From assembly GCA_012839115.1 (NCBI GenBank), contig DUNX01000038.1, positions 1 through 64,000 on the forward strand: a stretch of DNA of 64,000 nucleotides. Reading direction: 5' to 3'. The stretch's first letter is position 1, and every line of letters starts with the position of its first letter. Below, piece after piece: positions 11,189 to 24,952 of this stretch. Origin of the DNA: Bacillota bacterium (GTDB taxonomy: Bacteria > Bacillota > UBA4882 > UBA10575). The notes beneath the pieces were generated by a model. That model did no database searches. It was not told the DNA's origin and worked only from the letters and a program-made list of their open reading frames with translations. The position numbers and the translations under genes were made by a program.

Positions 11189-12184
11189 TTAACAAAGGGA
11201 ATTTTCTTTGGTGAAGGCGATGAGTTCGTCCACATAGGCAAAGGCCAAAGCGGTCACGGTGTCGGCCGCTCCATAGTAGATGGCCAGCCGTCCGGTGGCT
11301 GTATCACACAAAGCCGCACAGGGAAAGACCACATTGGGAACGTCCCCGACACATTCATAATCTTTTTGTGGGGAGAGGAGATACGGGGCTGTTCTGTACC
11401 TTACCTTCCAGGGCTCGTCCAGATCCAACAGAGCCGCGCCCATACTGTAAACATAACCATTACAAGAGGTCAGGACGCCATGGTAGATTAGGAGCCAGCC
11501 TTCGGTGGTTTCAATCGGGACCGGACCCGCGCCGATTTTTGTCGATTGCCATCCCCCTGCCGGCCGCATCACCAGCCGGTGCCGGCCCCAATGGAGCAGA
11601 TCCGGACTCTCGCTGTAAAAGATATCGCCAAAGGGGGTATGGCCCATGTCGCTGGGCCGGCTCAGCATGGCATACTTCCCCCGGATTTTCCTGGGAAAAA
11701 GCACACCGTTGCGGTTGAATGGCAAAAAGGCGTTCTCCAGTTGTAAGAATTCTTCAAAATCATATGTATAGGCCAGGCCAATGGTGGGGTAACCTGCATA
11801 ACCGTTACACCAGGTGAGATAGTAACAGTCTTCAAGCAGGCAAACTCTTGGATCGTAGCGGCCATAGTTGTACGCGGCGATCTCAGGATCGGCCCCTTTG
11901 AAAACAATGGGCTCAGGAGAGATCCGCCAGTTCAAACCGTCATCGCTCTCTCCCCGGTGCAGATTCATGCGGCGGCATTTGTCATCACAACGGAAAACCC
12001 CGGTAAACTTGTGGTTAAAAGGAATAACCGCGCTGTTAAATATACTGTTGGAGGTGGGAATTGCGTCTCTGGGAATCACCGGGTTTTTTGAATAACGCCA
12101 CACCGGATCCGAAGAACCGGCCGGCCGGTCTTCCCAAGGAATATTTGGTAAATCGACGCCAATAACAGTTCTCTTCTGCGGCAT
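11189..12184 (-). CDS. GH130-family beta-mannoside phosphorylase/glycosidase
   Basis: A 331-residue single-domain five-bladed propeller protein. GH130 hallmarks are the GRYDPR motif with candidate catalytic Asp111, [26 protein letters not shown], and the phosphate/sugar-site motif [26 protein letters not shown]. Family members phosphorolyse beta-1,4-mannosyl-glucose or manno-oligosaccharides to mannose-1-phosphate; a few hydrolyse. No signal peptide is seen, so it is cytoplasmic. AGGAAGGGG precedes the ATG. With manA next door, intracellular manno-oligosaccharide breakdown is likely; the subfamily cannot be set by eye. Confidence 0.85.
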
Positions 12185-12228
12185 TTTTAAACCCCTTCCT
12201 ATTGAATAAACTGGGATATTTACTATCT

Positions 12229-12256
12229 ATTATTCTGAAAAATATCCTTTTGTCAA
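12229..12256 (-). promoter_or_regulatory. promoter of the GH130 gene
   Basis: On the minus strand, TTGACA (12256-12251), a 16-bp spacer, and AATAAT (12234-12229), about 45 bp before the start codon. Confidence 0.65.
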
Positions 12257-12315
12257 GGAATTTCGGAAATACTCTTTATTATGGGATCAATTTCCATTAT
12301 TTTGCCATCTATATC

Positions 12316-12344
12316 TTGACAGGGGTTGTGAAATCTTCTATAAT
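12316..12344 (+). promoter_or_regulatory. consensus sigma-A promoter of metK
   Basis: TTGACA (12316-12321) and TATAAT (12339-12344), both perfect, 17 bp apart. The ~155-nt leader that follows has no recognisable SAM riboswitch and contains a CpG-rich tract at 12359-12426. Confidence 0.9.
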
Positions 12345-12358
12345 CCTGTTTAGATTCA

Positions 12359-12426
12359 TCGCGCATAACGCGGCGCCATGCGCGGCACATTTGCCGGCGC
12401 ACTCGCGCGGTGCGTGCGCGTTCGCA
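12359..12426 (+). repeat. CpG-rich alternating tract in the metK leader
   Basis: About 68 bp dominated by GCGC, GTGCG and CGCAC words, with inner complementary segments (GCAC...GTGC around TCGCGCG) able to fold. It lies wholly in the transcribed leader between the promoter and the metK ribosome site. Confidence 0.5.
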
Positions 12427-12498
12427 ATTTCCCACGCCAGGGGTCTTTTTTTTGCCGTATAGACGAAATGCCGCGCTGTGGCAGAAAGGAAGGGAAAA

Positions 12499-13692
12499 AT
12501 GGGAACCAAGCGACAACTTCTGACATCGGAATCCGTAACAGAGGGACATCCCGACAAGATCTGCGATCAGATCTCCGATGCGATTCTCGATGATATTCTC
12601 AGCAAAGACCCTAATTCCAGGGTGGCCTGTGAGACTGCTGTTACCACCGGGTTGATTTTGGTAATGGGTGAGATCACCACCGATTGTTACGTGGATATAC
12701 CGCATCTTGCCCGGGAGACCGTACGGGAGATTGGGTATACCCGCGCCAAATATGGGTTTGACTCCGAAACTTGCGCGGTCTTGACTACCATCGACGAGCA
12801 GTCGCCCGATATTGCCCTGGGGGTTGATAGTTCTTGGGAGACCCAAACCGGAGAAGGAAAGGATCTCCTTGACAGCCTGGGCGCAGGTGACCAGGGGATG
12901 GTTTTCGGCTACGCTTCCAACGAAACCCCCGAATTCATGCCGGCGCCGATTTTCTACGCCCACCAACTCACCCGCAGGCTGGCGGAGGTGAGAAAAAATG
13001 GGATCCTCCCTTATTTGCGTCCGGACGGGAAATCCCAAGTGACAGTAGAGTATGAAGACGGCCGCCCCGTGAGAATAACGGCGGTAGTGGTTTCTGCCCA
13101 GCATCATCCGGAGGTTGATCTTAAGACTTTCCGCGAGGAGATCCGGGAAGAGGTGATTGACAAGACGCTCCCAGCGGAACTCCTGGACGGGAAGACCAAA
13201 TATTACGTTAACCCCACCGGACGGTTTGTTACCGGCGGGCCACAAGGGGATTCCGGTTTGACCGGGCGGAAAATAATCGTTGATACATACGGCGGCGCCG
13301 CCCGGCACGGCGGGGGCGCGTTTTCCGGGAAAGATCCCACCAAAGTCGATCGTTCCGGTGCTTACGCCGCGCGGTACGTGGCGAAAAATGTGGTCGCCGC
13401 CGGTTTGGCCCGGCGTTGTGAAATACAGGTGGCCTACGCCATCGGGGTGGCCCGTCCTGTTTCCGTGCTGGTCGAGACTTTTGGTACGGAACGGATCGCC
13501 CCGGAGCGTTTGGAGAAATTGGTTACGGAGGTCTTTGACCTTAGGCCGGCGGCGATTATTCGCGATATGGACCTGCGGCGCCCGCTCTACCGGAAGGTAG
13601 CCAGTTATGGACATTTTGGGCGGAACGATCTGGATTTGCCATGGGAGAAGCTGGATAAAGTCGAGATCTTGCGTAAAGAGGCCGGGCTGTAG
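12499..13692 (+). CDS. metK: S-adenosylmethionine synthetase
   Basis: MetK makes SAM from methionine and ATP in the cytoplasm. All core motifs are present: [15 protein letters not shown] at the start, [12 protein letters not shown] (the ATP/methionine loop), [16 protein letters not shown] (P-loop-like), and a C-terminal region with [19 protein letters not shown] 12499 after AGGAAGGG gives the usual 397 residues; a GTG 21 bp upstream lacks a ribosome site and would add non-conserved residues. It is monocistronic, between the divergent GH130 gene and rpmE. Confidence 0.96.
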
Positions 13693-13732
13693 GGATCTTT
13701 TGGCGAAGTCGCGCGTGCGCGTTGCTCTTTTC

Positions 13733-13761
13733 TTGCGCATGCCTTACGGTTGTGTTATAAT
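13733..13761 (+). promoter_or_regulatory. promoter of rpmE
   Basis: TTGCGC (13733-13738), 17-bp spacer, perfect TATAAT (13756-13761). The -35 box lies in a GCGC-rich stretch; a 13-base alternating run (from ~13710) is just upstream. Confidence 0.7.
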
Positions 13762-13796
13762 TGAAAAGTTAATAAGTGCAGTAAGAAAGGTGATCG

Positions 13797-14021
13797 ATGC
13801 AGATGAAAAAAGATATTCATCCCGAATACCACCAGGCGAAAGTGACTTGCGTCTGTGGGGAGAGTTTTGTTACCGGTTCGACTAAAAAAGAGATCCGGGT
13901 AGAGATCTGTTCCAAATGCCACCCGTTATTCACCGGGAAACAGCGGATTGTGGATTCCGGTGGCCAGGTGGAAAAATTCCAGAAACGTTTCGGTAAAACC
14001 CAGAAGAAACAGAAGGCTTGA
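13797..14021 (+). CDS. rpmE: 50S ribosomal protein L31 (zinc-binding type)
   Basis: A 74-residue L31 beginning [12 protein letters not shown], with CVC at ~18-20 and CSKC at ~38-41, the four-cysteine zinc form that is replaced by a Cys-less paralogue under zinc starvation in other Bacillota. GGTGATC sits correctly for ATG 13797; ATG 13803 would remove two residues. The basic C-terminal tail binds rRNA. The downstream order DUF1385-prfA-prmC is typical for Clostridia. Confidence 0.94.
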
Positions 14022-14067
14022 CAAAGAGGGCGTTTTTACCAAGATAATATCGGGAAGGTGAAAAATC

Positions 14068-15024
14068 TTGCCCAATAATTTTCAATACGGCGGCCAGGGC
14101 GTCCTGGAAGGCGTAATGATGCGTGGCCGGCGTCATTATGCCGTGGCTGTCCGCCGTGGGCCCGGGGATGTTGTGCTGCAAAGCCGGGAGACGGCTTCTT
14201 ATACAGAGAGACATCCCTTATTGAAAAGGCCGTTCATCCGGGGGATAATCGCCCTTGGGGAATCTTTTCTCCTGGGGTTGAGGGCCTTGGAATTCTCCGC
14301 CAATCAGTTAATGGAAGCCGAAGGCGAAGGGGAAATTACCACCCGGGAGATGGTCGTAACGATCATTTTGGCCTTGGGAATGACGGTTCTTCTCTTCATC
14401 GCCCTCCCTTTGTTTATCCGCCAGATAATCAGCGGTTATCTCCCGGGGATCTTTTGGCGGAACCTCAGCGAGGGAGTGGTACGGGTTCTGATCCTGATGG
14501 GGTATATTTTAGCCGTTTCTGTGGTCAAAGATATCCAGCGGGTCTTTGCTTATCATGGTGCGGAGCATCAGGTGATCCACACCTATGAGGCGGGAGAAGA
14601 ACTGACAGTGGAAAACGCCCGGAAGAAATCGCCGCTTCACCCCAGATGCGGGACGAGTTTTTTGCTTTTTGTCGTCTTAATCAGTGCTCTTGTCTTCTCG
14701 TTCCTGGGCGAACAGACAATGTTAATGCGTTTTCTTTCGCGGTTGTTGCTTTTACCGGTAATAGCCGGTATTTCCTATGAAATAATCAAGCTGGCCGGGA
14801 AGAATCAATCCATTTTTCTTTGGCAGTGGCTGAGTTGGCCCGGTCTTTTGTTACAGCGCCTTACAACCCGGCCTCCGGATGACGAGCAGTTGCAAGTGGC
14901 AATTATGGCATTGCAAGAAGTGTTGAACCAGGAGGAGAAGAAGGAAACCCAACCCCTCCCTTCACAGACGGGGCTGCGTTCTACCGCCGGGAAAATGAAG
15001 AGCGAGGTTGACAGTGGTGTTTGA
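14068..15024 (+). CDS. DUF1385 multi-pass membrane protein (YqhQ family)
   Basis: A 318-residue protein starting at TTG 14068 after GGGAAGGTG. It opens with [26 protein letters not shown], the DUF1385 signature, followed by at least four hydrophobic segments (around residues 95-130, 140-160, 205-225 and 230-250) and the conserved [17 protein letters not shown] and [12 protein letters not shown] motifs. The family is membrane-embedded and of unknown biochemical role; the conserved His/Glu/Cys residues hint at metal binding. It ends inside the start of prfA. TTGACA at 14018 near the rpmE stop may give a secondary promoter. Confidence 0.9.
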
Positions 15025-16096
15025 GAAGTTGAATGCCATCACTAAAAAATATGAAGAATTGGGTAGAAAATTGGCTGACCCGGAAGTGGTGGCCAACCCC
15101 AAGGAAATGCAAAAATTGGCCAAGGCCCATGCGGACCTGGCCGGTATTGTTTCTGTTTACGAAGAATACCGCCAGGTAGAGTCTGATTTGGAGGTTGCCC
15201 GGGGTCTGCTGGAGGAGCAACTTTCCGAAGAAGAGGTAGCCCTGGTTAAAAAAGACCTGGTTGAACTGGAAAAGAAGGAACGGGAGTTATCCCAGGAGTT
15301 AAGATTGCTGCTTATTCCCAAGGATCCGGATGATGAAAAGAATGTCCTCGTGGAGATTAGGGCCGGAACCGGTGGAGAAGAAGCCGCCCTTTTTGCCGGG
15401 GACCTCTTCCGGATGTATACCCGGTATGCCGAGTCCCAGGGGTGGAAGACTGAGATTATGAGTGCCAACCCTACGGAATTGGGGGGGTTTAAAGAGATTA
15501 TCTTTATGGTGGAGGGAAAAGGGGTTTATAACCGCTTGAAGTTTGAGAGCGGGGTCCACAGGGTCCAGCGGGTGCCGGTGACTGAAGCCGGGGGCAGGAT
15601 CCATACCTCTGCCGCCTCTGTCTTTGTTCTACCGGAAGCAGAAGAGGTCGACGTGGAACTGGACCCCAACGACCTGCGGATTGATGTTTACCGTTCTTCC
15701 GGCCACGGGGGACAGAGTGTTAACACCACCGATTCCGCAGTGCGGGTAACCCATTTGCCCACCGGGATGGTTGTTTCCTGTCAGGACGAAAAGTCGCAGT
15801 TGAAAAATAAGGAAAAAGCCTTGAAGGTCCTGCGGGCCAGGCTTTTGGATCAGATGCGCCAGAAACAACAGGAGGAACTGGCCAACACCCGCCGGAGTCT
15901 GGTAAGAACCGGCGACCGGAGTGAAAGGATCCGCACTTATAATTTCCCGCAGAACCGGGTGACCGACCACCGTGTCGGTTTAACTTTACACCGCCTGGAT
16001 GCAATTATCGCCGGAGATCTGGAAGAGATCATTTCTACGCTGCTGATTTCTGAACAAACGGAAAAATTGAAACAGGCGGACGGAACGGGCGGTTGA
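15017..16096 (+). CDS. prfA: peptide chain release factor 1
   Basis: RF1 reads UAA/UAG and triggers peptide release. It has an N-terminal coiled coil, the domain starting [22 protein letters not shown], and the catalytic GGQ loop [20 protein letters not shown] 15017 gives [16 protein letters not shown], matching family N-termini, with GCGAGG nine bases upstream; GTG 15014 and TTG 15008 are alternatives. It overlaps DUF1385 by 8 bp and prmC by 1 bp. PrmC methylates the GGQ glutamine, so the pair is functionally coupled. Confidence 0.95.
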
Positions 16097-17025
16097 TGAA
16101 GATGCCTGATATCAAGACGGTTCTTACTTCAACCGCTGTTTTTTTTGCCGGTAAGGGCCTGGACGCCGCCCGCCTGGAAGCAGAGGTCCTTTTGGCCCAT
16201 GTCCTAGCCACCGACCGGCTCCACCTTTACTTAATGCCCGACCGGCCATTGGACGCGGAGGAGATACGGAAGTATAAAGAAGTAATCCGCCTCCGGCTCA
16301 TGGGGACGCCCACGGCTTACATCACGGGGAAGAAGTCCTTTCTCAAGTGGGAGTTCAAAGTAACCCCGGAGGTGCTTGTCCCCAGGCCGGAAACGGAACT
16401 ACTGGTGGAAAAGGCGGTGGAGGCGGCGGCCGGGCGGATACCATCGCTAGCAGCGATGACAGCACCGGCTGCGTGCGCGGGTAAAGACCCGGGCGCATGC
16501 CGCCTGTTGGATTTGGGGACCGGCAGCGGCGCGGTGGCAGTCGCCCTTGCCCATTATCTTCCGGAATGCCTGATCGATGCGGTTGATATTTCTCCGGCTG
16601 CGGTGGCGGTGGCAGAAGAGAACTCCCGGTTGCTCGGGATGGAAGAAAGGATCACTTTCTACACGGGCGATCTTTTCTCGGTTTTACCGGAGGAGAAGAA
16701 AGACAGCTATTTAGGGGTTGTCTCCAACCCCCCGTATATCCCCAGCAAAGCCTGGCCCGACCTGCCCAGGGAAGTCCAGGCGGAGCCGCGGGTGGCCCTG
16801 GACGGGGGAGAGGATGGCCTGAAGGTAATTAAAGATATTTTGCACCAGGCCGGCGAGTACCTGATGCCAGCGGGTTTTGTTGCCCTGGAGCATGGGGATG
16901 ATCAACCCTTGCAGGTGGCGGAGATCGCAAGAAATGAAGGATTTCCCCATGTTTGTACATATAAGGATCTTGCCGGACGCTGCCGGGTGACCGTTGTTTC
17001 CCGGGAAAAATGGGAGAAGTCGTGA
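16096..17025 (+). CDS. prmC: protein-(glutamine-N5) methyltransferase, release-factor specific
   Basis: PrmC methylates the glutamine of the GGQ motif in release factors using SAM. The N-terminal helical domain is followed by the Rossmann domain with LLDLGTGSGAVAVALA and the substrate motif VSNPPYIP. The start is taken at ATG 16096 in a TGATG overlap; TTG 16093 and ATG 16102 are possible. Between VPRPETELLVEKAVEAAAG and CRLLDLG are ~20 extra Ala/Pro-rich residues encoded by a GCGTGCGCGGG tract at ~16440-16500. They lie before the SAM motif and probably form a loop. Confidence 0.94.
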   Translation: MKMPDIKTVLTSTAVFFAGKGLDAARLEAEVLLAHVLATDRLHLYLMPDRPLDAEEIRKYKEVIRLRLMGTPTAYITGKKSFLKWEFKVTPEVLVPRPETELLVEKAVEAAAGRIPSLAAMTAPAACAGKDPGACRLLDLGTGSGAVAVALAHYLPECLIDAVDISPAAVAVAEENSRLLGMEERITFYTGDLFSVLPEEKKDSYLGVVSNPPYIPSKAWPDLPREVQAEPRVALDGGEDGLKVIKDILHQAGEYLMPAGFVALEHGDDQPLQVAEIARNEGFPHVCTYKDLAGRCRVTVVSREKWEKS

Positions 17026-17030
17026 TTCTC

Positions 17031-17065
17031 TATGGCGTAGCCATGCGTAGCCATGCGTAGCCATG
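17031..17065 (+). repeat. short 10-bp tandem repeat CCATGCGTAG
   Basis: CCATGCGTAG occurs twice in direct tandem (17041-17060), flanked by partial copies on both sides (GGCGTAG and CCATG). It lies just after the prmC stop and has no coding meaning. Confidence 0.75.
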
Positions 17066-17139
17066 TTTTCTCCATGCCTTGGATAACATAAGACAGTTAC
17101 GGGTTACTACAGATTGCGCATTTTGCGATTGGACGTTTC

Positions 17140-17174
17140 AGCGCTTAAGCCAACAGTGGCGTAGGCGCTTTTTT
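17140..17174 (+). terminator. probable Rho-independent terminator after prmC
   Basis: AGCGC...GCC pairs with GGC...GCGCT through an imperfect stem, followed by TTTTTT. It lies ~115 bp after the prmC stop. Confidence 0.6.
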
Positions 17175-17299
17175 ATTTGGCAAGATCCTGCCGTCGTCAT
17201 CAACGGTATTTGGTGGTAAATGTCTAAAAAACACAGTTTTGCGTAATAATTATAAGGAAACCAAAAATGGACAATTATAAAGGGGAAGGAGGCGGCCGG

Positions 17300-17971
17300 A
17301 TGGGGTCCGGGTTTTGGGAGAAGAGAATCGAGGGCAACCGGAAACAAGCCGAGGAGAACAAGATCTTTTTGACCTCACGGAAAGCCATCCTCTTTAACCT
17401 GATCGGAAGCTCCGGTGCGGGCAAGACCGAAGTAATCCGGAGAACCCACGAAATTTTACAGGGCCGGTTTTTCATCCAGGTGGTGCAGGGTTCGGCCGCA
17501 GCGGAACTGGATATGGCACGGTTACAGGCGGTAGGAATTACTTCATGTGCGGCCAGGACCGGGCGGCAATGGGGGTATCTAAAGGCCGGAGAGGTCGGCG
17601 CCGCCCTGCGGAGGCTGCCGCTTTCCCCGGGCAGCCTGGTTTTTATCGAAAATCCGGGGGAATTGTTCTCGCCTGTCGATTTTCACCTGGGCGAGCATTG
17701 CCGGGTATTGGTACATAGTATCGCCGAGGGTGATGATACACCGGCAAAATTTCCCCGGGCCTATGCCGGGGTTGACCTTGTTATTTTGAACAAGATTGAT
17801 CTTCTCCCTTTTTCCGGGTTCTCCCGGAAGCGGTTCACCGCCCACCTCCGGCAGGTCAACCCGGACGCGGAGGAGTTGGCCCTTTCCTGCCGGACCGGCG
17901 TGGGGTTGAATCACTGGCGGGACTGGCTTTTGAAGTTTTGCGGGGAAAGCCCGTTTGAGGAGAGCGGTTGA
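17300..17971 (+). CDS. HypB-like G3E GTPase lacking the usual metal ligands
   Basis: 223 residues with the HypB/UreG fold: Walker A GSSGAGKTE, EGDDTPAKFP, VILNKIDLLP (G4) and the FIENPGEL strand. HypB inserts nickel into hydrogenase, binding metal in its G domain through a Cys-His pair (GCHLDA-like) and a Cys in NLVCPA. Here the equivalents read RTGRQWGYLKA and GELFSPVD, so these ligands appear absent, and there is no His-rich N-terminus. No hyp, hydrogenase or urease gene is nearby. AAGGAGG fixes ATG 17300. It may be a metallochaperone for another metal or a repurposed GTPase. Confidence 0.75.
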   Translation: MGSGFWEKRIEGNRKQAEENKIFLTSRKAILFNLIGSSGAGKTEVIRRTHEILQGRFFIQVVQGSAAAELDMARLQAVGITSCAARTGRQWGYLKAGEVGAALRRLPLSPGSLVFIENPGELFSPVDFHLGEHCRVLVHSIAEGDDTPAKFPRAYAGVDLVILNKIDLLPFSGFSRKRFTAHLRQVNPDAEELALSCRTGVGLNHWRDWLLKFCGESPFEESG

Positions 17972-18004
17972 GTCAAGGCCGGAGGCTTTGCAACAGAAGG
18001 ATAA

Positions 18005-18033
18005 TTGACTTTTTACCCCTGCCATGCTATACT
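18005..18033 (+). promoter_or_regulatory. promoter of hom
   Basis: TTGACT (18005-18010), 17-bp spacer, TATACT (18028-18033); the hom start is 62 bp downstream. Confidence 0.75.
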
Positions 18034-18094
18034 AACAGAAGTTACGCTGGATATTTCTCTCTTTTTTTTTATGAGAAGATTATAGGAGAAAGAG

Positions 18095-19426
18095 ATGATT
18101 GCAATGGAGCAACCGGTAATCAATATTGGCATTATGGGGGTAGGAAATATTGGTACCGGTGTGGCCAGAATTCTCTTGCAAGAAAGAGAGTTGCTTGCTT
18201 CCCGTTGCGGAATGCGCTTCAACCTGAAAACCGTGGTCGATACGGACTGGGAGCGGGAGCGGGGAGTTGGTTTTGCCGGTGTAAAGATGGGCACCGATGT
18301 GACGGAGATTATTAATGATCCCGAAATTGATATTGTTATAGAAACTATCGGCGGCTATGAACCGGCATTCACCTATGTCATGCAGGCGTTGGCCAGCGGA
18401 AAACATGTGATTACCGCCAACAAGGCCTTACTGGCCACCAAGGGCCGGGAGCTCTTTTCCCAAGCCCGGGCCAACGGGGTCGATATTCTTTTTGAAGCTA
18501 GTGTGGGCGGGGGGATCCCAGTGATTATGGGGTTACGTGAGGGTCTGGTCGCCAACAGGATCCTCGGCCTCTACGGGATCGTCAACGGGACCTCCAACTA
18601 CATCCTTTCCCGGATGCATCAGGATAATATGGACTTTGCCGGGGCGCTCAAGGAAGCACAGGACAGAGGATTTGCCGAAGCCGATCCCACTCTGGATATC
18701 AATGGGGTTGATGCTGCGCATAAATTGGCGATCCTGGCTTCTCTAGCCTCCGGATCCCTGGCGGATTTTGACCGGATTCCGGTGGAGGGCATCACCGGTG
18801 TGACGCCGCTTGATATTAATTATGCCAAGAGTTTCGGATATGTCATTAAATTACTGGCGATTTGCCGCTTTGTCGGGGGAAAAGCCGATTTGCGGGTACA
18901 TCCGACGCTTGTTCCGGAAGAACACTTGTTGGCGGCGGTCAACAATGAGCTTAATGCGGTTTTTATCAGCGGTGATTTGGTTGGCAACACCATGTTTTAC
19001 GGGCCCGGCGCCGGCCAGAACCCGACGGCCAGCGCTGTAGTGAGCGATATTGTTGATATGGCCAGGAATATACTGGCACGCCCGTGTACCATGAAAAATG
19101 GGGAGAGTTTTTTCGGCCTTTCGGTGAACCCGGAAAAGGATCTTCCCCTTTTGCCCCTGGACGAGGTTACCAACCGTTTTTACCTGCGCCTGTATACTTT
19201 GGACCAGCCGGGAATTCTGGCCAAGATCTCTGGCGTCCTTGGGGCAAATAAGATCTCCATCTCTTCTGTAGTGCAACTGGAAACCCATGGGGAAAAGGAT
19301 TTTGTCCCGATTGTCCTTTTGACGCACGAAGCCCCGGAGCATGCTTTGAATGAGGCGCTTATGGAGTTGAAGGAGTTTGCTTTTATCCGCCCGGATATTC
19401 TCCGGCTCAGACTTTTTCACGCCTGA
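18095..19426 (+). CDS. hom: homoserine dehydrogenase with C-terminal ACT domain
   Basis: It reduces aspartate semialdehyde to homoserine with NAD(P)H on the way to threonine and methionine. NINIGIMGVGNIGTGVA-like Rossmann motif at residues ~8-22, the family signature around ANKALLA, EASVGGGIPVI, GIVNGTSNYILSRM, and DINGVDAAHKLAILA. Residues ~360-443 form an ACT domain (YTLDQPGILAKISGVLGANKISISS), implying allosteric control, probably by threonine. AGGAGA precedes ATG 18095. It has its own promoter; thrB and thrC are not adjacent. Confidence 0.95.
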   Translation: MIAMEQPVINIGIMGVGNIGTGVARILLQERELLASRCGMRFNLKTVVDTDWERERGVGFAGVKMGTDVTEIINDPEIDIVIETIGGYEPAFTYVMQALASGKHVITANKALLATKGRELFSQARANGVDILFEASVGGGIPVIMGLREGLVANRILGLYGIVNGTSNYILSRMHQDNMDFAGALKEAQDRGFAEADPTLDINGVDAAHKLAILASLASGSLADFDRIPVEGITGVTPLDINYAKSFGYVIKLLAICRFVGGKADLRVHPTLVPEEHLLAAVNNELNAVFISGDLVGNTMFYGPGAGQNPTASAVVSDIVDMARNILARPCTMKNGESFFGLSVNPEKDLPLLPLDEVTNRFYLRLYTLDQPGILAKISGVLGANKISISSVVQLETHGEKDFVPIVLLTHEAPEHALNEALMELKEFAFIRPDILRLRLFHA

Positions 19427-19483
19427 GGAAAGAAAGGATTTGCCGTTGGGGATATTATAAAAAACATGAGGAGGCTCTAGTCC

Positions 19484-19705
19484 ATGAAAGAGCAAGTCGA
19501 AAAGGCCCTGGAAAAGATCCGTCCCGCTTTGCAGGCTGACGGGGGCGATGTGGAACTGGTTGATGTTACGGAAAACGGGGTTGTCCAGGTCCGGCTCAGA
19601 GGAGCCTGTGCCGGTTGTCCCATGGCGACGCTGACGTTAAAAAACGGGATTGAACGCCGTCTACGGGAAGAGATACCGGAGATAAAAAGCGTAGAAGCTG
19701 TTTAG
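19484..19705 (+). CDS. NifU C-terminal-domain (Nfu-type) iron-sulfur scaffold protein
   Basis: 73 residues consisting only of the Nfu domain: [18 protein letters not shown], then [18 protein letters not shown] with the CxxC that bridges a [4Fe-4S] cluster between two subunits, then [17 protein letters not shown]. Such proteins carry clusters to apo-proteins; IspG in this window is one possible client (inference). AGGAGG lies 10 nt upstream of the ATG. A terminator follows. Confidence 0.92.
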
Positions 19706-19801
19706 TTTAGGCCAGACCTGCCCGTGAAACCCTAAAGGTATACTTGTCGGGCATTTCCATAAGGATATACCCGCAAGGGTATAGCCTTACTGTACATTGG
19801 G

Positions 19802-19830
19802 AAAAAGCGCCGGAAAAAGGCGCTTTTTTT
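19802..19830 (+). terminator. Rho-independent terminator downstream of the Nfu gene
   Basis: AAAAGCGCC, a short A-rich loop, GGCGCTTTT, continuing into a T-run. Confidence 0.85.
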
Positions 19831-19968
19831 GTTGAACCGGGCAAAAGGCCTGCCTTAGAAAAATTATGTTGACACAGGAGCTTTCTGATAAAAATTTTAT
19901 ATACTGTTATAGGATGCTTAAGACGCCTCCCGAACCAAGATAGCGAGATAAAGGAGGGAAATAAGCTC

Positions 19969-20064
19969 ATGGCAGAAGGCATGAATATTTTTGGGTCGAA
20001 GGATTCTCTTTCCTTATGCCTCTTCATCATCTTGATTCTGTGCTTGTGTGGAAACAGGTTCTAA
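19969..20064 (+). CDS. 31-residue hydrophobic peptide
   Basis: AAGGAGG at 19951 precedes ATG 19969 by 11 nt; the product starts MAEGMNIFGSKDSLSL, then has one short membrane segment CLFIILILCLCGN and ends RF. It is followed by a clear terminator, so it has its own expression unit. Tiny single-span peptides with this layout are common in spore formers, but I cannot assign a family. TTGACA at 19869 is upstream, without a well-spaced -10; sporulation-sigma control is possible and unproven. Confidence 0.55.
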   Translation: MAEGMNIFGSKDSLSLCLFIILILCLCGNRF

Positions 20065-20086
20065 GCCAGGGATAGCCAAGTAAAGA

Positions 20087-20116
20087 CAAAAAACCCCGGA
20101 ATACCCGGGGTTTTTT
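20087..20116 (+). terminator. Rho-independent terminator after the 31-residue peptide gene
   Basis: CCCCGG, loop, CCGGGG, flanked by A6 upstream and T6 downstream; it may act in both directions. Confidence 0.85.
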
Positions 20117-20267
20117 ATTGTTGCCGCAGGCGTGCGAACAAGTGTAACCAGGCCCTACCCCCGGCGCACATATGGGCGGAGGAATTTCTTTTATAAGAAG
20201 GAGTTTTGTCCCGGATTGACGAAATGAACTGAGAATTGCGGCTAAATTCAGGTATGAGGTGAAGGCT

Positions 20268-21191
20268 ATGAAGGTGAAAATTATACTTAATCCCCAGGCC
20301 GGGAGGGGGAAAGCCGCCAAACTCAAACCAAAGATTCTGGCTGAACTGGCGAAGTACGGCTACCTTTCCCACCTGGAGGAGACGCAATGGCACGGTCATG
20401 CCATAGAAATTGCGAAAAAGGCAGTGGAATCCGGGTATGATCTGGTGATTACTGCCGGCGGTGACGGTACGGTTAATCAAGTGGTTAACGGGATGGCGGG
20501 CAGCAAGGTTCCACTTGGTGTTTTGAGCGCCGGCACAGGTAATGATTTTGCTGCCATGATCGGGATGCCCGCCGACCCGGTTGCCGGGATCTGGCAAATT
20601 ATCGAAGGGGAAACCAAGTGGGTGGACCTCTGCCGCCTAAATGAAAGCTTTTTTATTTCTTCGGTGGGCGCCGGGTTTGACGGGCAGGTGGCATATAACG
20701 TTAACCGGGGGATACGCTTTGTCCGCGGGATGCCCGCCTATCTTTTGTCGGTGCTAAAAACACTCTTCTCTTTCCGGCTCCACCGGGTGAAAATGGTGGT
20801 GGACGGGAGAGAACGGGAGTATAGAGCTTTATTATTCGCGGTTACTAATTCCTGCACCTATGGCGGGGGGATAAAAATAACCCCGGCGGCCAGAATTGAT
20901 GACGGTCTATTCGAAATCTGCGTGGTGAAAGAGGTTACTCCCTTCGATGTCCTCTGGTTTCTGCCGCTGGCGATTAAAGGGGAGCACGGCCGGTTGCACG
21001 ATAAAGTTGAGTTTTTCCGGGGACGGGAGATTTATCTGGAAAGTACGACCCCACTCTTCTACCAAATAGACGGGGAGGTTTTTCAGGAGACTGTTTTCCG
21101 GTTTTCAATGATTCCCGGGGGGTTTCCGGTCCGCGGAGCGGTTCTTACCCCTTCCGCCAATGAAGAAGTAGCAACGGTAAAGGAGGCTTAG
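20268..21191 (+). CDS. diacylglycerol/lipid kinase (DagK catalytic domain)
   Basis: 307 residues: KIILNPQAGRGKA nucleotide-binding start, TAGGDGTVNQVVNG (residues ~64-77) and LSAGTGNDFAAMIG, the hallmarks of DgkB/YegS-type kinases that phosphorylate diacylglycerol or a related lipid at the membrane face. The C-terminal beta-sandwich includes KITPAARIDDGLFEICVV. ATG 20268 with GAGGTGA is chosen over GTG 20259. It ends 2 bp before plsY, so the two phospholipid genes form an operon. Confidence 0.9.
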   Translation: MKVKIILNPQAGRGKAAKLKPKILAELAKYGYLSHLEETQWHGHAIEIAKKAVESGYDLVITAGGDGTVNQVVNGMAGSKVPLGVLSAGTGNDFAAMIGMPADPVAGIWQIIEGETKWVDLCRLNESFFISSVGAGFDGQVAYNVNRGIRFVRGMPAYLLSVLKTLFSFRLHRVKMVVDGREREYRALLFAVTNSCTYGGGIKITPAARIDDGLFEICVVKEVTPFDVLWFLPLAIKGEHGRLHDKVEFFRGREIYLESTTPLFYQIDGEVFQETVFRFSMIPGGFPVRGAVLTPSANEEVATVKEA

Positions 21192-21193
21192 TA

Positions 21194-21778
21194 ATGGATT
21201 TGGGATCAGTAATGTCTTTGGTGCTTATGGGGATCGTTTCCTATTTAACCGGTGCCATCCCCACCGGGGTCCTGGTGGGGAAATGGTTGAAAGGCATCAA
21301 CCTCCAGAGGGAAGGGAGCGGTAATATCGGGGCTGCCAACGCCTTTGATACAATGGGCATCGTTCCGGCATTGCTGGTTTTGGCCGGCGATTTTGGCAAA
21401 GGACTGCTGGTTCTAGTTCTCACCAGGGCTTTGGGCTTTCCGGCCGAAGTGGAGCTCTGGATGGGTTTTCTGGCGGTAACAGGCCATATCTTCCCCGTTT
21501 ACCTGCGTTTCCGGGGAGGTAAAGGCCTGGCCACCGGTCTGGCAGTAGCCCTATGGGGCGCACCCCTCGCGGTCCTGGTCTTTATTCCCCTCTGGGCGGT
21601 GGTTTTTCTCCCTACCCGCTATATGCCGGTCGCTTCCTTTACGGGGGTTTTGGGAGTGGCGGTTTATGCCGGTATTTCAGGTATCCCCGCCGGGGTTTGT
21701 CTCGGCTTGCTGATCGCCGGGAGACATTTCCCGGAAACTTGGGCCTTTCTGAAAAAGAAATTCTCCCCGGGTACATAA
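21194..21778 (+). CDS. plsY: acyl-phosphate:glycerol-3-phosphate acyltransferase
   Basis: PlsY makes lysophosphatidate from acyl-phosphate and glycerol-3-phosphate in the membrane. 194 residues, five hydrophobic segments, with the conserved SYLTGAIPTGVLVGKW, GSGNIGAANAFDTMG and FRGGKGLATGLAV loops (the phosphate and acyl-phosphate sites). The last codons share an inverted repeat with the end of the convergent trmL. Confidence 0.94.
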   Translation: MDLGSVMSLVLMGIVSYLTGAIPTGVLVGKWLKGINLQREGSGNIGAANAFDTMGIVPALLVLAGDFGKGLLVLVLTRALGFPAEVELWMGFLAVTGHIFPVYLRFRGGKGLATGLAVALWGAPLAVLVFIPLWAVVFLPTRYMPVASFTGVLGVAVYAGISGIPAGVCLGLLIAGRHFPETWAFLKKKFSPGT

Positions 21779-21797
21779 GGATCAAGCGAACCCGGGG
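21765..21797. repeat. inverted repeat across the plsY/trmL convergent stops
   Basis: CCCCGGGT (21765-21772) is complementary to ACCCGGGG (21790-21797), with both stop codons in the loop. Without a T-run it is at best a weak two-way terminator or transcript-end stabiliser. Confidence 0.5.
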
Positions 21798-22243
21798 AAA
21801 CCGGTCTGGCGTAAAGCCTCATAAAGAACAATCGCTACGGAGTTGGCCAGGTTTAGAGAGCGTGCCCCGGGGATCATGGGAATCCGGAGGTTCTGCCCGG
21901 GGTTCAGCGAGAGGACCTCTGCGGGCAATCCCCGTGTTTCCGGGCCAAAGACCAAAAAATCGTTGGGTTGGAAAACAGCTTCATGATACGGTCTTTGGCT
22001 TTTGGTGGTAAAAAAGAACCAGCGGGCGCCGGGATGAGCGGTGAGCAACGCCTGGAAATCCAGGTGCCGCCGGAGGGGAACCAGGGGCCAATAATCCAGG
22101 CCGGCACGGCGAAGGTGCTTGTCATCAAGGAAAAAAGCCAAAGGTTCCACCAGGTGCAGGCTGCTCCCGGTGGCGGCACAGAGACGGGCGATGTTCCCTG
22201 TGTTTTGCGGGATCTCCGGCTGGTAGAGGACAATGTTGAACAT
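21782..22243 (-). CDS. trmL: tRNA (cytidine/uridine-34 2'-O)-methyltransferase TrmL
   Basis: A 153-residue SPOUT enzyme that methylates the wobble ribose of leucine tRNAs. Trefoil-knot motifs are clear: LYQPEIPQNTGNIARLCAATG at residues ~7-27, FGPETRGLP, and IPMIPGARSLNLANSVAIVLYEALRQ. GAAGGAG lies upstream of the ATG at 22243. It is convergent with plsY (3 bp apart) and divergent from folC. Confidence 0.94.
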   Translation of the reverse strand: MFNIVLYQPEIPQNTGNIARLCAATGSSLHLVEPLAFFLDDKHLRRAGLDYWPLVPLRRHLDFQALLTAHPGARWFFFTTKSQRPYHEAVFQPNDFLVFGPETRGLPAEVLSLNPGQNLRIPMIPGARSLNLANSVAIVLYEALRQTGFPGFA

Positions 22244-22303
22244 GACCGTTTACTCCTTCGTTTAGTTTTTTGGGTTTCTATGGTCCGGTACGGGTGTGTG
22301 TAT

Positions 22304-22332
22304 TTGCGCGCACTCGCAAAGAGTAAGACAAT
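22304..22332 (+). promoter_or_regulatory. possible promoter of folC
   Basis: TTGCGC (22304-22309), 17 bp, GACAAT (22327-22332). The -35 box overlaps an alternating GTGTGTG/GCGCGCAC tract, as at rpmE. Confidence 0.4.
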
Positions 22333-22416
22333 ATTTTCTTCTCCATTTTGCCCAATATCCCTTTGGCGGGCATCCCTTTGGCTGGTGAAAAAGTGAATGG
22401 CGGGTGGCAGAAGTCA

Positions 22417-23736
22417 ATGGCTAAGTCTATGGCTTACGAAGAAGCCCTGCAGTACATCCACGGGCGCTACCGTTTCCGGATCAAACTTGGGCTGGAACGC
22501 ATGGGTTATCTCCTTAAGGAACTTGGCGATCCCCACCGCCAATTCCCGGCGGTTCATATTGCCGGGACCAACGGGAAAGGTTCCACCGCCATGATGTTGA
22601 ATGCGGTTTTGAAAAAAGCCGGCTATAAAGTGGGACGGTATACTTCGCCGCATTTGAGTTCATATTGTGAACGTATGGTTGTAGATGATAAGAATATTCT
22701 TCCGGAAAGACTCGCTTCGCTGGTAACCCGGGTTAAGCCGGTGGTGGAGGCCGCAGACTGCCGGCCGGAGATCGGCGCCGCTACCGAGTTTGAATTCGGT
22801 ACCCTCCTGGCGTTTTCTTTTTTTGCCGAAGAACAAGTGGATATAGCCGTTATTGAGGTGGGTATGGGAGGGAGACTTGACGCGACCAATGTGGTGGATC
22901 CCTTGGTTTGCGCGATCACCCCGATTGGCCTGGAACACCGGGAATATCTGGGCCAGACCCTGGAGGAGATTGCCCGGGAAAAAGCGGGCATTATTAAAGA
23001 AAAACGGCCGGTGGTAACCGGGTTACAGGAACCCGGAGCATTAAAGGTATTGGCCGGGTGTGCCGCCAAAACCGGCGCTCCCTTTTACCGTGTGGGCGGA
23101 GAGATCCGCTTCCGGTTGGGCAAAGCCGATCTAACCGGAACTTATCTGGAATTACAATGGAAAGAAGAGCCGGCAGTGCCGGTACGGTTGAATCTTTTAG
23201 GGTCGCACCAGGCGGCCAACGCCGCCCTGGTTTTTGGCGCTTTACACTTGCTGCGGGAAGAAGGTTTCCCTTGGCGGCAGGAGGATCTGCTCACCGGCTT
23301 GAATGAGGTGAAATGGCCGGGACGTCTGGAGTTAATTCCAGGGAACCCCTCTTTTTTGCTGGACGGGGCCCATAACCCCCATGCTTGCCGGGTATTGGCG
23401 CGGAGCCTTGAAGAACTGTTCCCCCAAACAACGCTCACGGCAATCATCGGTGTGCAGGAAAACCGGCCGGTGGAAGAGATGGCCGGGATTCTCGCGCCCA
23501 AGCTTCGCAAGGTTTTTGCTACCCGGATTCCCCACCCCAAAACGGCTCTTCCCCCACGGGTAGCCGCGGCCTTTCGCAGCCATGGCATTGACGCGGTGGA
23601 GGTAGCCGATCCGCTACAGGCAGTGCGTTTGGCCGGGGAAGAGAACCTGTCAGCCCGCGCGGCACTGCCTGTCTTGTTTACCGGCTCTTTTTACCTGTTG
23701 GGGGAGGTACGCCCATATTTGTTGCCCGGGTGTTAG
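22417..23736 (+). CDS. folC: folylpolyglutamate synthase/dihydrofolate synthase
   Basis: FolC adds glutamates to folates, and often also glycine-linked glutamate to dihydropteroate. Motifs are AGTNGKGSTAMML (P-loop), the conserved EVGMGGRLDATNVV, and LDGAHNPHA; the final third is the Rossmann-like Mur ligase C-domain. The N-terminus is uncertain: ATG 22417, ATG 22429 (MAYEEALQYIHG, best homology) and GTG 22393 (with GGTGA upstream) all fit. The gene is alone between divergent trmL and the rpsB promoter. Confidence 0.93.
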   Translation: MAKSMAYEEALQYIHGRYRFRIKLGLERMGYLLKELGDPHRQFPAVHIAGTNGKGSTAMMLNAVLKKAGYKVGRYTSPHLSSYCERMVVDDKNILPERLASLVTRVKPVVEAADCRPEIGAATEFEFGTLLAFSFFAEEQVDIAVIEVGMGGRLDATNVVDPLVCAITPIGLEHREYLGQTLEEIAREKAGIIKEKRPVVTGLQEPGALKVLAGCAAKTGAPFYRVGGEIRFRLGKADLTGTYLELQWKEEPAVPVRLNLLGSHQAANAALVFGALHLLREEGFPWRQEDLLTGLNEVKWPGRLELIPGNPSFLLDGAHNPHACRVLARSLEELFPQTTLTAIIGVQENRPVEEMAGILAPKLRKVFATRIPHPKTALPPRVAAAFRSHGIDAVEVADPLQAVRLAGEENLSARAALPVLFTGSFYLLGEVRPYLLPGC

Positions 23737-23804
23737 CAGTTTTTGCCGGATCTTTTTGCGGTTTTTCTGTGGTTTTTGCGCGTGTGGAAATTCCGGCTAA
23801 ACTA

Positions 23805-23833
23805 TTGCCAGGAAAACTTAATCATGATATACT
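23805..23833 (+). promoter_or_regulatory. promoter of the rpsB operon
   Basis: TTGCCA (23805-23810), 17-bp spacer, TATACT (23828-23833), followed by a 117-nt leader. Confidence 0.75.
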
Positions 23834-23858
23834 TTAAGGGTATGTTTTTCATCACACA

Positions 23859-23918
23859 CGCTTTCGGATCCCGCGCCCAGGTGCCCTGAAGGGGGTGGGT
23901 GCGGGGAGGAAGAAAGCG
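23859..23918 (+). promoter_or_regulatory. structured rpsB leader, candidate S2 autoregulatory element
   Basis: CGCTTTC (23859-23865) pairs with GAAAGCG (23912-23918); inside, CCCGC pairs with GCGGG and GCCC with GGGT, capped by CCC-TGAA-GGG. The coaxial stem ends ~20 nt before the ribosome site. Ribosomal protein leaders often serve autogenous control, but I cannot match this to a named motif. Confidence 0.5.
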
Positions 23919-23950
23919 GAGGTATTAACCAAAGGGAAGGAGGTGACCAC

Positions 23951-24952
23951 ATGGCAGTTATTTCGATGAAGCAATTACTTGAAGCCGGGGTGCATTTTGG
24001 TCACCAGACCAGGCGTTGGAACCCGAAGATGGCTCCTTATATTTTTGCCGAACGCAACGGGATCTACATTATCGACCTGCAAAAAACCGTAAAAATGGTG
24101 GAAGAAGCCTATCATTTTGTGCGGAATTTGGCGGCCGAAGGCGGCAGTATTCTCTTTGTCGGCACCAAAAAGCAGGCCCAGGATGCCATCCGTGAAGAAG
24201 CCACAAGGTGCGGGATGTTCTACGTCTGCCACCGGTGGCTGGGCGGGATGTTAACCAATTTTCAGACCATCCGCTCACGGGTGGAGAGACTGAAAAAGAT
24301 TGAAAAAATGGCTGAAGACGGTTCCTTTGATTTGCTTCCGAAAAAAGAGGTCTTGCAGTTGGAAAAGGAACGGGCCCGCCTGGAGAAGTTTTTGAGCGGG
24401 GTCAAGGAAATGAACCGGCTGCCCGATGCGATTTTTGTTGTGGACCCGCGCAAAGAACGGATTGCGGTGGCAGAAGCAAGAAAGCTGGCGATCCCCATTA
24501 TCGCCATTGTCGATACCAACTGCGACCCCGATGAAGTGGATTATATTATCCCCGGGAATGACGATGCGATCAGGGCAGTTCGCCTTCTCTCCGGGAAGAT
24601 TGCCGACGCTGTGATTGAAGGACGCCAGGGCGAGCAAACGGCAGAAGCGGAGACTGCTCCGGCTGACACGGCTAGCCAAGCTAGCCAGGGGGAAGCCGCG
24701 GAAATTATAGAGGAAACCGAAGCAGCGGTTGAACCTGAGGAACCGGCCGCCGAAAAACCGGTGGCGACCAAGAAACCGGCGGCCAAGGAAAAACCGGTAA
24801 AAACCAAGGAACCGGCGGCCAAAGAAAAACCGGTAAAAACCAAGAAACCGGTTGCTGAAGAAGAACCGGTAGAAACCTTGGAACCGGCTGCCGGGGAAGA
24901 AACGGTAGAAACCGGGGAACCGGCGGCTGCAACAGCTGCGGAAGATAAGTAA
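23951..24952 (+). CDS. rpsB: 30S ribosomal protein S2 with repeated C-terminal extension
   Basis: Residues 1-225 are a complete S2: [94 protein letters not shown]. Normal S2 ends near residue 235-260; here ~100 extra residues rich in Glu, Lys, Pro and Ala follow, including four 12-residue repeats. The extension is in frame and acidic/basic mixed, probably disordered. AAGGAGGTGACC gives a strong ribosome site at ATG 23951. Confidence 0.95.
24785..24928 (+). repeat. four 36-bp tandem repeats in the 3' part of rpsB
   Basis: Units 24785-24820, 24821-24856, 24857-24892 and 24893-24928 encode (K/A/G)-E-(K/E)-(P/T)-V-(K/E)-T-x-x-P-A/V-A, residues 279-326 of S2. The first two units are nearly identical at DNA level; the later two are diverged toward Glu. 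Confidence 0.85.

Follow-up and report, generated by a model that had tools for sequence, protein, structure and literature searches.

The G3E GTPases whose roles are named in a section of PMC9164220 serve metal sites or metallocofactors. HypBs in general carry a nickel-binding region, a rule to which there are exceptions (extract of PMC12134894), and in M. jannaschii HypB the metal site of the G domain, CHxnC, consists of Cys-95, His-96 and Cys-127 (parts of PMC3262836 and PMC7055735). For A. fulgidus HypB, passages of PMC3262836 connect Asp-72 with Mg and with an inter-subunit salt bridge to Lys-148, describe Lys-148 as needed for GTP-dependent dimerisation, and place Asp-66 of the apo protein in the gamma-phosphate pocket, where it pairs with the P-loop Lys. 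The HypA-docking residues of E. coli HypB are the hydrophobic Leu-78 and Val-80 (extract of PMC3287977). In a literature search limited to open-licence PMC papers, none of the titles and abstract openings listed described a G3E HypB lacking CHxnC in the bacterial group studied here, and pairing HypB with Hydrogenispora in the same kind of search returned no paper.

We analyzed a 64,000-nucleotide stretch of a Bacillota genome (the window; the genome, 96.9% complete, is called G000). At 17300..17971 (+) it encodes, counted from the ATG at 17300, a 223-aa HypB-like G3E GTPase that lacks the metal ligands; this order-specific, HypB-derived GTPase and its orthologues are hereafter called X. The longest ATG form of the frame spans 17267-17971 (234 aa), and the start at 17300 is at least as good, with a Shine-Dalgarno sequence (AAGGAGG, 17286-17292, located by eye) 7 nt ahead of it. 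Upstream lie metK, DUF1385, prfA and, as the direct 5' neighbor, prmC (16093..17025, +); downstream lies hom (18095..19426, +). No hyp gene adjoins X in the window, in agreement with the original prediction, which had also described X as monocistronic beside hom: hom is indeed adjacent here, and a monocistronic unit is plausible given intergenic gaps of 274 bp (counted from 17300) and 123 bp. We found no terminator-like site in either gap, and the single promoter-like site in 16950-18200, a region in which 0.9 such sites are expected by chance, sits before hom (18005-18033). A scan of positions 12000-24000 against Rfam gave nothing at the gathering threshold. Directly after prmC there is a tandem repeat (17035-17065, 3.1 copies of GCGTAGCCAT).

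The HypB profile TIGR00073 scores window X at 156.8 bits (cut-off 121.2). Among orthologues it reaches 152.4 bits in G010, 121.9 in g3 and 64.5 in G016, and stays below the cut-off, at 98.7-105.3 bits, in one X each from g2, g4 and g5; three canonical HypB copies score 225-251 bits. The best match among solved structures by sequence is M. jannaschii HypB 2hf8 (phmmer E 1.4e-32), and the top solved relatives are the HypBs of M. jannaschii, A. fulgidus and H. pylori. An AlphaFold model built from 48 sequences has a pLDDT of 89.7, falling to 53 in the last block, the C-terminal tail. Foldseek with this model again returns 2hf8 first (E 4.3e-21, TM 0.83 by query and 0.91 by target), followed by other HypBs and then by UreG and MMAA. 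Because of these profile, solved-structure and model-fold matches, X is assigned to the HypB branch of G3E GTPases. TIGR00073 is an equivalog model and scores window X over its cut-off, so that a genome of this kind would be annotated automatically as having a nickel-insertion protein, one without the metal ligands.

For a residue comparison, 18 X rows representing 17 genes were aligned with a canonical set of 98 HypBs, made up of 95 loci rows, the E. coli protein and the 2hf8 and 2wsm stretches; this set is not random, being drawn from pattern and profile matches resembling X. The Cys-His metal ligands, present in 98/98 canonical sequences, are replaced in window X by Gly103-Tyr104 (17573..17578, +), and the second metal-binding Cys, also found in 98/98, by Ser135 (17669..17671, +). 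RQWGYLKA of window X stands opposite KECHLDA of the solved HypBs, with one residue inserted near the lost Cys-His, and ENPGELFSP opposite ENVGNLICP. Across the family, the Cys-His columns read G/Y or G/A in 4 X rows and are gapped in 14, mostly through real deletion; at the second Cys, 17 X rows carry a letter, always one of Y, S, L and A. CHxnC as a whole is absent from all 18 X rows and present in all 98 canonical ones. The original prediction had read QWGYLKA and ELFSPVD as a replacement of the Cys-His and Cys ligands, and it was right; because 17 orthologues share the losses, they are not due to chance. A third loss concerns G2, where the invariant Asp (A. fulgidus Asp-66; D in 98/98 canonical) is Ser76 in window X (17492..17494, +); of the 18 X rows, 2 are gapped at this column and the other 16 have Q, S or T. 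The E. coli Leu-78 and Val-80 columns are Gly/Gly in window X, in a weakly aligned region. The N-terminus of X is absent or unalignable in g2, g4, g5 and g6, and in A2, an alignment of 11 of the 17 X sequences (a second alignment, A1, holds 10 of 17), residues 1-41 show 51% gaps and 24% identity.

Among the loci read, loss of the ligands coincides with the order. CH is kept in 118 of the 178 loci found, and the 60 without it are all from the order (113 distinct ORFs were kept, and those dropped ORFs that we checked match kept rows exactly in their cores). In a sample of the phylum, 172 of 398 genomes matched; the 10 full-length order members score at least 247 bits, a fragment of X from G012 183 bits and the next best match 173 bits. 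Among the best 30 of these matches, which we read as loci, 11 are from the order and 19 from outside it, and 19/19 of the latter keep the ligands.

The nucleotide motifs and the dimer pair have a different fate. The G1/P-loop of window X, GSSGAGKT (residues 47-54, 17405..17428, +), is intact, and its Lys and Thr occur in 17/17 X rows with letters and 98/98 canonical sequences. G3 reads ENPG (ExxG; 17648..17659, +), with Glu in 17/17 X rows with letters. G4, NKID (residues 175-178, 17789..17800, +), is likewise intact, its Asp being kept in 17/17 X rows with letters although G016 reads NHLD, and G5, SCR (residues 207-209, 17885..17893, +), is invariant in A2. The original claim that the GTPase motifs are intact thus holds for the P-loop, ExxG, NKID and SCR and fails at the G2 Asp. 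Asp82, the equivalent of A. fulgidus Asp-72 (17510..17512, +), is D in 17/17 X rows with letters and 98/98 canonical ones; Lys161, the equivalent of Lys-148 (17747..17749, +; K in 98/98 canonical), is K in 16/17 X rows with letters and R in G016. In RRTHE (residues 58-62, 17438..17452, +), Arg58 occupies the column of A. fulgidus Glu-48, which is R in 17/17 X rows with letters (canonical: E in 77/98, R in 4/98), and His61 is invariant in A2. The C-terminal tail (..FEESG, 17933..17968, +) extends further than that of E. coli HypB and contains Glu231, also invariant in A2. Judged from sequence, the residue census of X against canonical HypBs thus indicates that X has lost what is specific to nickel and retained what serves the GTP dimer. 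GTP use by the G016 protein appears less sure, given NHLD and Arg in place of Lys-148.

A chaperone that has lost one metal site might have gained another. Window X contains four separated cysteines (94, 145, 208 and 225); Cys94 is found in 3/3 X sequences of g1, and Cys145 and His150, which g3 X shares with g1, in 4/4 sequences of g1 and g3 together. X could accordingly be a metallochaperone with new ligands, in which Cys94 or a nearby residue, Cys145 and His150 bind another metal in g1 and g3 and different ligands do so elsewhere; a cation-efflux gene neighboring X in g2, g4, g5 and g6 also hints at metals. We consider this unlikely. The Cys94/Cys145/His150 set is not common to the other 7 sequences of A2, and no metal-ligand set is common to all 11: His61 and Cys208 are the only invariant Cys/His residues, neither lies within the lost loops, and Cys at the Cys208 column is common in ordinary HypB (51/98 canonical). 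The conserved alternative Cys/His ligands that the original prediction had named as evidence against itself are therefore not seen family-wide. As for the efflux gene, it lies on the strand opposite to X; the loci of g1, g3 and f2 lack it, and its relatives in g1 and g3 are just 28-30% identical.

X occurs in 17/17 genomes of the order, namely 16/16 in the window's family and G016, the one genome available from a second family. In the class (29 genomes), canonical HypB is found in 8/10 genomes of f5, with none in the other 2 and none in f3 and f4 (this census leaves out one second HypB-like match in G028), and it stands beside X in 4/17 order genomes. HypA passes the cut-off on its own in G005, G006, G008 and G012 of the order and in the same 8 f5 genomes, so that canonical HypB is accompanied by HypA in 12/12 genomes of the class. 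HypA of G018 passes solely with neighboring segments added, and G009, G014 and G016 (E 1.1e-5 to 3.0e-4), as well as G017, have sub-cut-off matches. The NiFe large-subunit family is matched in 1/17 genomes of the order (G012, over 69 positions) and in 8/10 of f5. The original prediction had proposed looking for a canonical hypB elsewhere in the genome, and we find none in G000; HypA and the NiFe large subunit were searched for there too, and neither was found. It had also held that co-occurrence only with hydrogenases and no other hypB would speak against it. We observe instead that 16/17 X genomes have no NiFe large-subunit match and that X is accompanied by a canonical hypB in the four genomes mentioned.

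G000 does encode an FeFe hydrogenase (L001, G000:C42:26156-27859; NF040763 942.7 bits, cut-off 765), which provides for hydrogen metabolism without nickel by at least one route. The G012 locus L189 (G012:C110:20000-31959) contains complex-I-like/hyc-type membrane genes and HypE-, HypD- and HypF-like ORFs (identified by eye); together with hypA and the canonical hypB it likely represents a NiFe hydrogenase cluster, and G012 keeps X as well. The X gene of G012 is itself divided between two contig ends (L022 and L027), probably owing to an assembly break inside the gene; the pieces were left unjoined and out of the tree, and were counted as one gene.

The distribution bears on the idea that X, a HypB without a nickel site, continues to serve nickel enzymes by way of a different carrier. 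T. kodakarensis HypB may be a precedent, in that a section of a review (PMC7055735) reports that no nickel site has been identified in it. For X we regard this as quite improbable: HypA over the cut-off is missing from 13/17 genomes, G000 included, in a class where each canonical HypB is paired with HypA; residues 1-41 are gapped and divergent, as described above; and no canonical HypB was found in G000.

In a tree of 68 hand-picked rows of the 113, in which the bootstrap had not settled, the 16 full-length X sequences form one clade (100/100) that groups with the HypBs of f5, a family of the same class (97/83). The extra canonical HypB copies of G005, G006 and G012 are placed away from the X clade, as if they had been acquired separately. 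X of G016 is a long branch (2.2 changes per column). Long X branches would also fit relaxed selection, and X might be a decaying HypB, left from lost NiFe hydrogenases and drifting toward a pseudogene; the missing metal ligands, the large deletions in g2, g4, g5 and g6 and the 13/17 genomes without HypA over the cut-off all agree with such a scenario. The selection data make it very unlikely. The dN/dS of X is 0.155-0.223 in the window's genus (3 pairs), with reference values of 0.176-0.200 for prmC, 0.065-0.085 for prfA and 0.083 for metK, and in g2 it is 0.065-0.128 in 23/28 pairs (5 were not computable, and in many dS is saturated). The X frame is open in 16/17 genomes, the 17th being the split gene of G012, and in G016 the stops lie past the frame end. 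Pairwise identity among 11 X sequences is lowest in the old CH loop (0.23) and the N-terminus (0.24) and reaches 0.68 in the P-loop/alpha1 and 0.59-0.60 in the G4 and G5 regions, and the P-loop and G5 are invariant over the deep split. X is under purifying selection, with a dN/dS within the genus near that of prmC, and because this ratio is close to prmC there and low in g2, X looks like a working protein rather than a relic.

The genes around X vary. In G010, X is followed on its 3' side by cheB, and in G011 by a similar ORF (by eye). A cation-efflux gene takes this place in g2, g4 and g6; in g5 it comes second, after a YgjP-like gene, and g3 and G016 have other ORFs there. hom, the neighbor in G000, is not the neighbor at the other loci examined and was rejected as a functional partner. 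Cation efflux was rejected as an obligatory partner, a close gene lying near X in just 12/17 genomes; the relative in G016 is 50% identical and on another contig. On the 5' side, the order DUF1385-prfA-prmC-trkH-trkA-X recurs in G016, G001, G014 and G015 (genes partly by eye; a run of N lies near X in G015) and is probably the oldest. G018 has the same order up to trkA without X, followed by a run of N, and the absence of X there rests on the profile search. Since those four genomes have trkH (PF02386) and, by eye, an ORF resembling trkA directly 5' of X, X could be a GTPase tied to potassium uptake, a reading that we find extremely unlikely, as the trkH-trkA pair is not at the X locus in g1, g3, g4 and 7/8 g2 genomes, and an X genome, G009, has no TrkH match at all. 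For that last reason TrkH/TrkA was also dismissed as an obligatory partner.

Two candidate clients were rejected. Methylmalonyl-CoA mutase is absent, with PF01642 in 0/17 order genomes. An IsrA-like oxidoreductase is full-length only in G005, G006 and G008, where it has its own HypA-HypB, and the other 14 genomes hold partial matches of 35-39%. In these three genomes (L188:7624-12118 in G005, G006:C19 and G008:C17) hypA, canonical hypB and a methyltransferase stand together with a 936-aa FAD/Fe-S oxidoreductase in an operon-like run, of which the oxidoreductase-HypA-HypB part resembles the isr operon in the portion of PMC10134865 that describes it.

We favor, as probable, the reading that X is a HypB-derived, metal-free, GTP-gated dimer that serves a client other than a nickel enzyme. 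From its kept motifs X is predicted to bind GTP still, and GTP would dimerize it by joining Asp82 and Lys161 across subunits. The loss of the Asp-66 equivalent should alter nucleotide exchange, perhaps favoring the GTP-bound, dimeric state. The monomer-dimer switch would then act directly on a nickel-independent protein client, and X may gate this client much as MeaB gates its own, without holding a cofactor. The original prediction of a neofunctionalized G3E GTPase gains from the order-wide conservation, the single clade, the purifying selection, the lost metal ligands and the kept GTP-dimer residues. Its further suggestion, delivery of a different cofactor, stays conjectural: the 11 aligned X sequences share no set of metal ligands, and the candidates examined yielded no client. 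Somewhat more tentatively, and with slightly less than even confidence, we propose that X is the founder of a G3E subfamily independent of metal: at the base of the order, and a single time, the GTP-gated dimer of HypB would have been recruited to control a new client unrelated to nickel; this would be a natural separation of the HypB GTP switch from metal chemistry. If the favored reading is true, X would show that the GTP switch is useful alone, without a metal site, and X lends itself to telling apart, as a natural experiment, the HypB residues that serve GTP from those for nickel.

Comparison with described families sets X apart in different ways. UreG has the G3E fold in common with X (5xkt, TM 0.67/0.77), but TIGR00101 (cut-off 204.2) gives window X just 21.8 bits. 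Window X also matches PF02492, the nucleotide-binding domain of COG0523/CobW proteins, at 27.8 bits, but lacks CxCC and reaches 13.1 bits with TIGR02475 (cut-off 332.1); the sole other PF02492 match in G000 (22.3 bits, cut-off 20.7) lies inside a 518-aa frame. MeaB/MMAA is a weak fold match to the X model (8gju, TM by query 0.49-0.57), and its profile PF03308 is not among the profile matches of window X (E up to 1). According to part of PMC9164220, this G3E GTPase need not hold the cofactor that it helps deliver; since its classic client, methylmalonyl-CoA mutase, is absent from 17/17 X genomes, the analogy is one of mechanism alone. The T. kodakarensis HypB, whose nickel site is likewise not identified in the relevant part of PMC7055735, is an Mrp/MinD-type ATPase that works with HypA, whereas X belongs to the G3E proteins, carries NKxD and mostly has no HypA beside it. 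Closest is HypB itself (TIGR00073; 2hf8, A. fulgidus 2wsm and H. pylori 4lps). X differs from it in being without CHxnC, the G2 Asp-66 and recognizable HypA-docking residues, and most X carriers, unlike HypB genomes, are without HypA or NiFe hydrogenase; yet X, with 34% identity to 2hf8 in window X, is like HypB in fold, length and G1, G3, G4 and G5 motifs, and has the equivalents of both Asp-72 and Lys-148.
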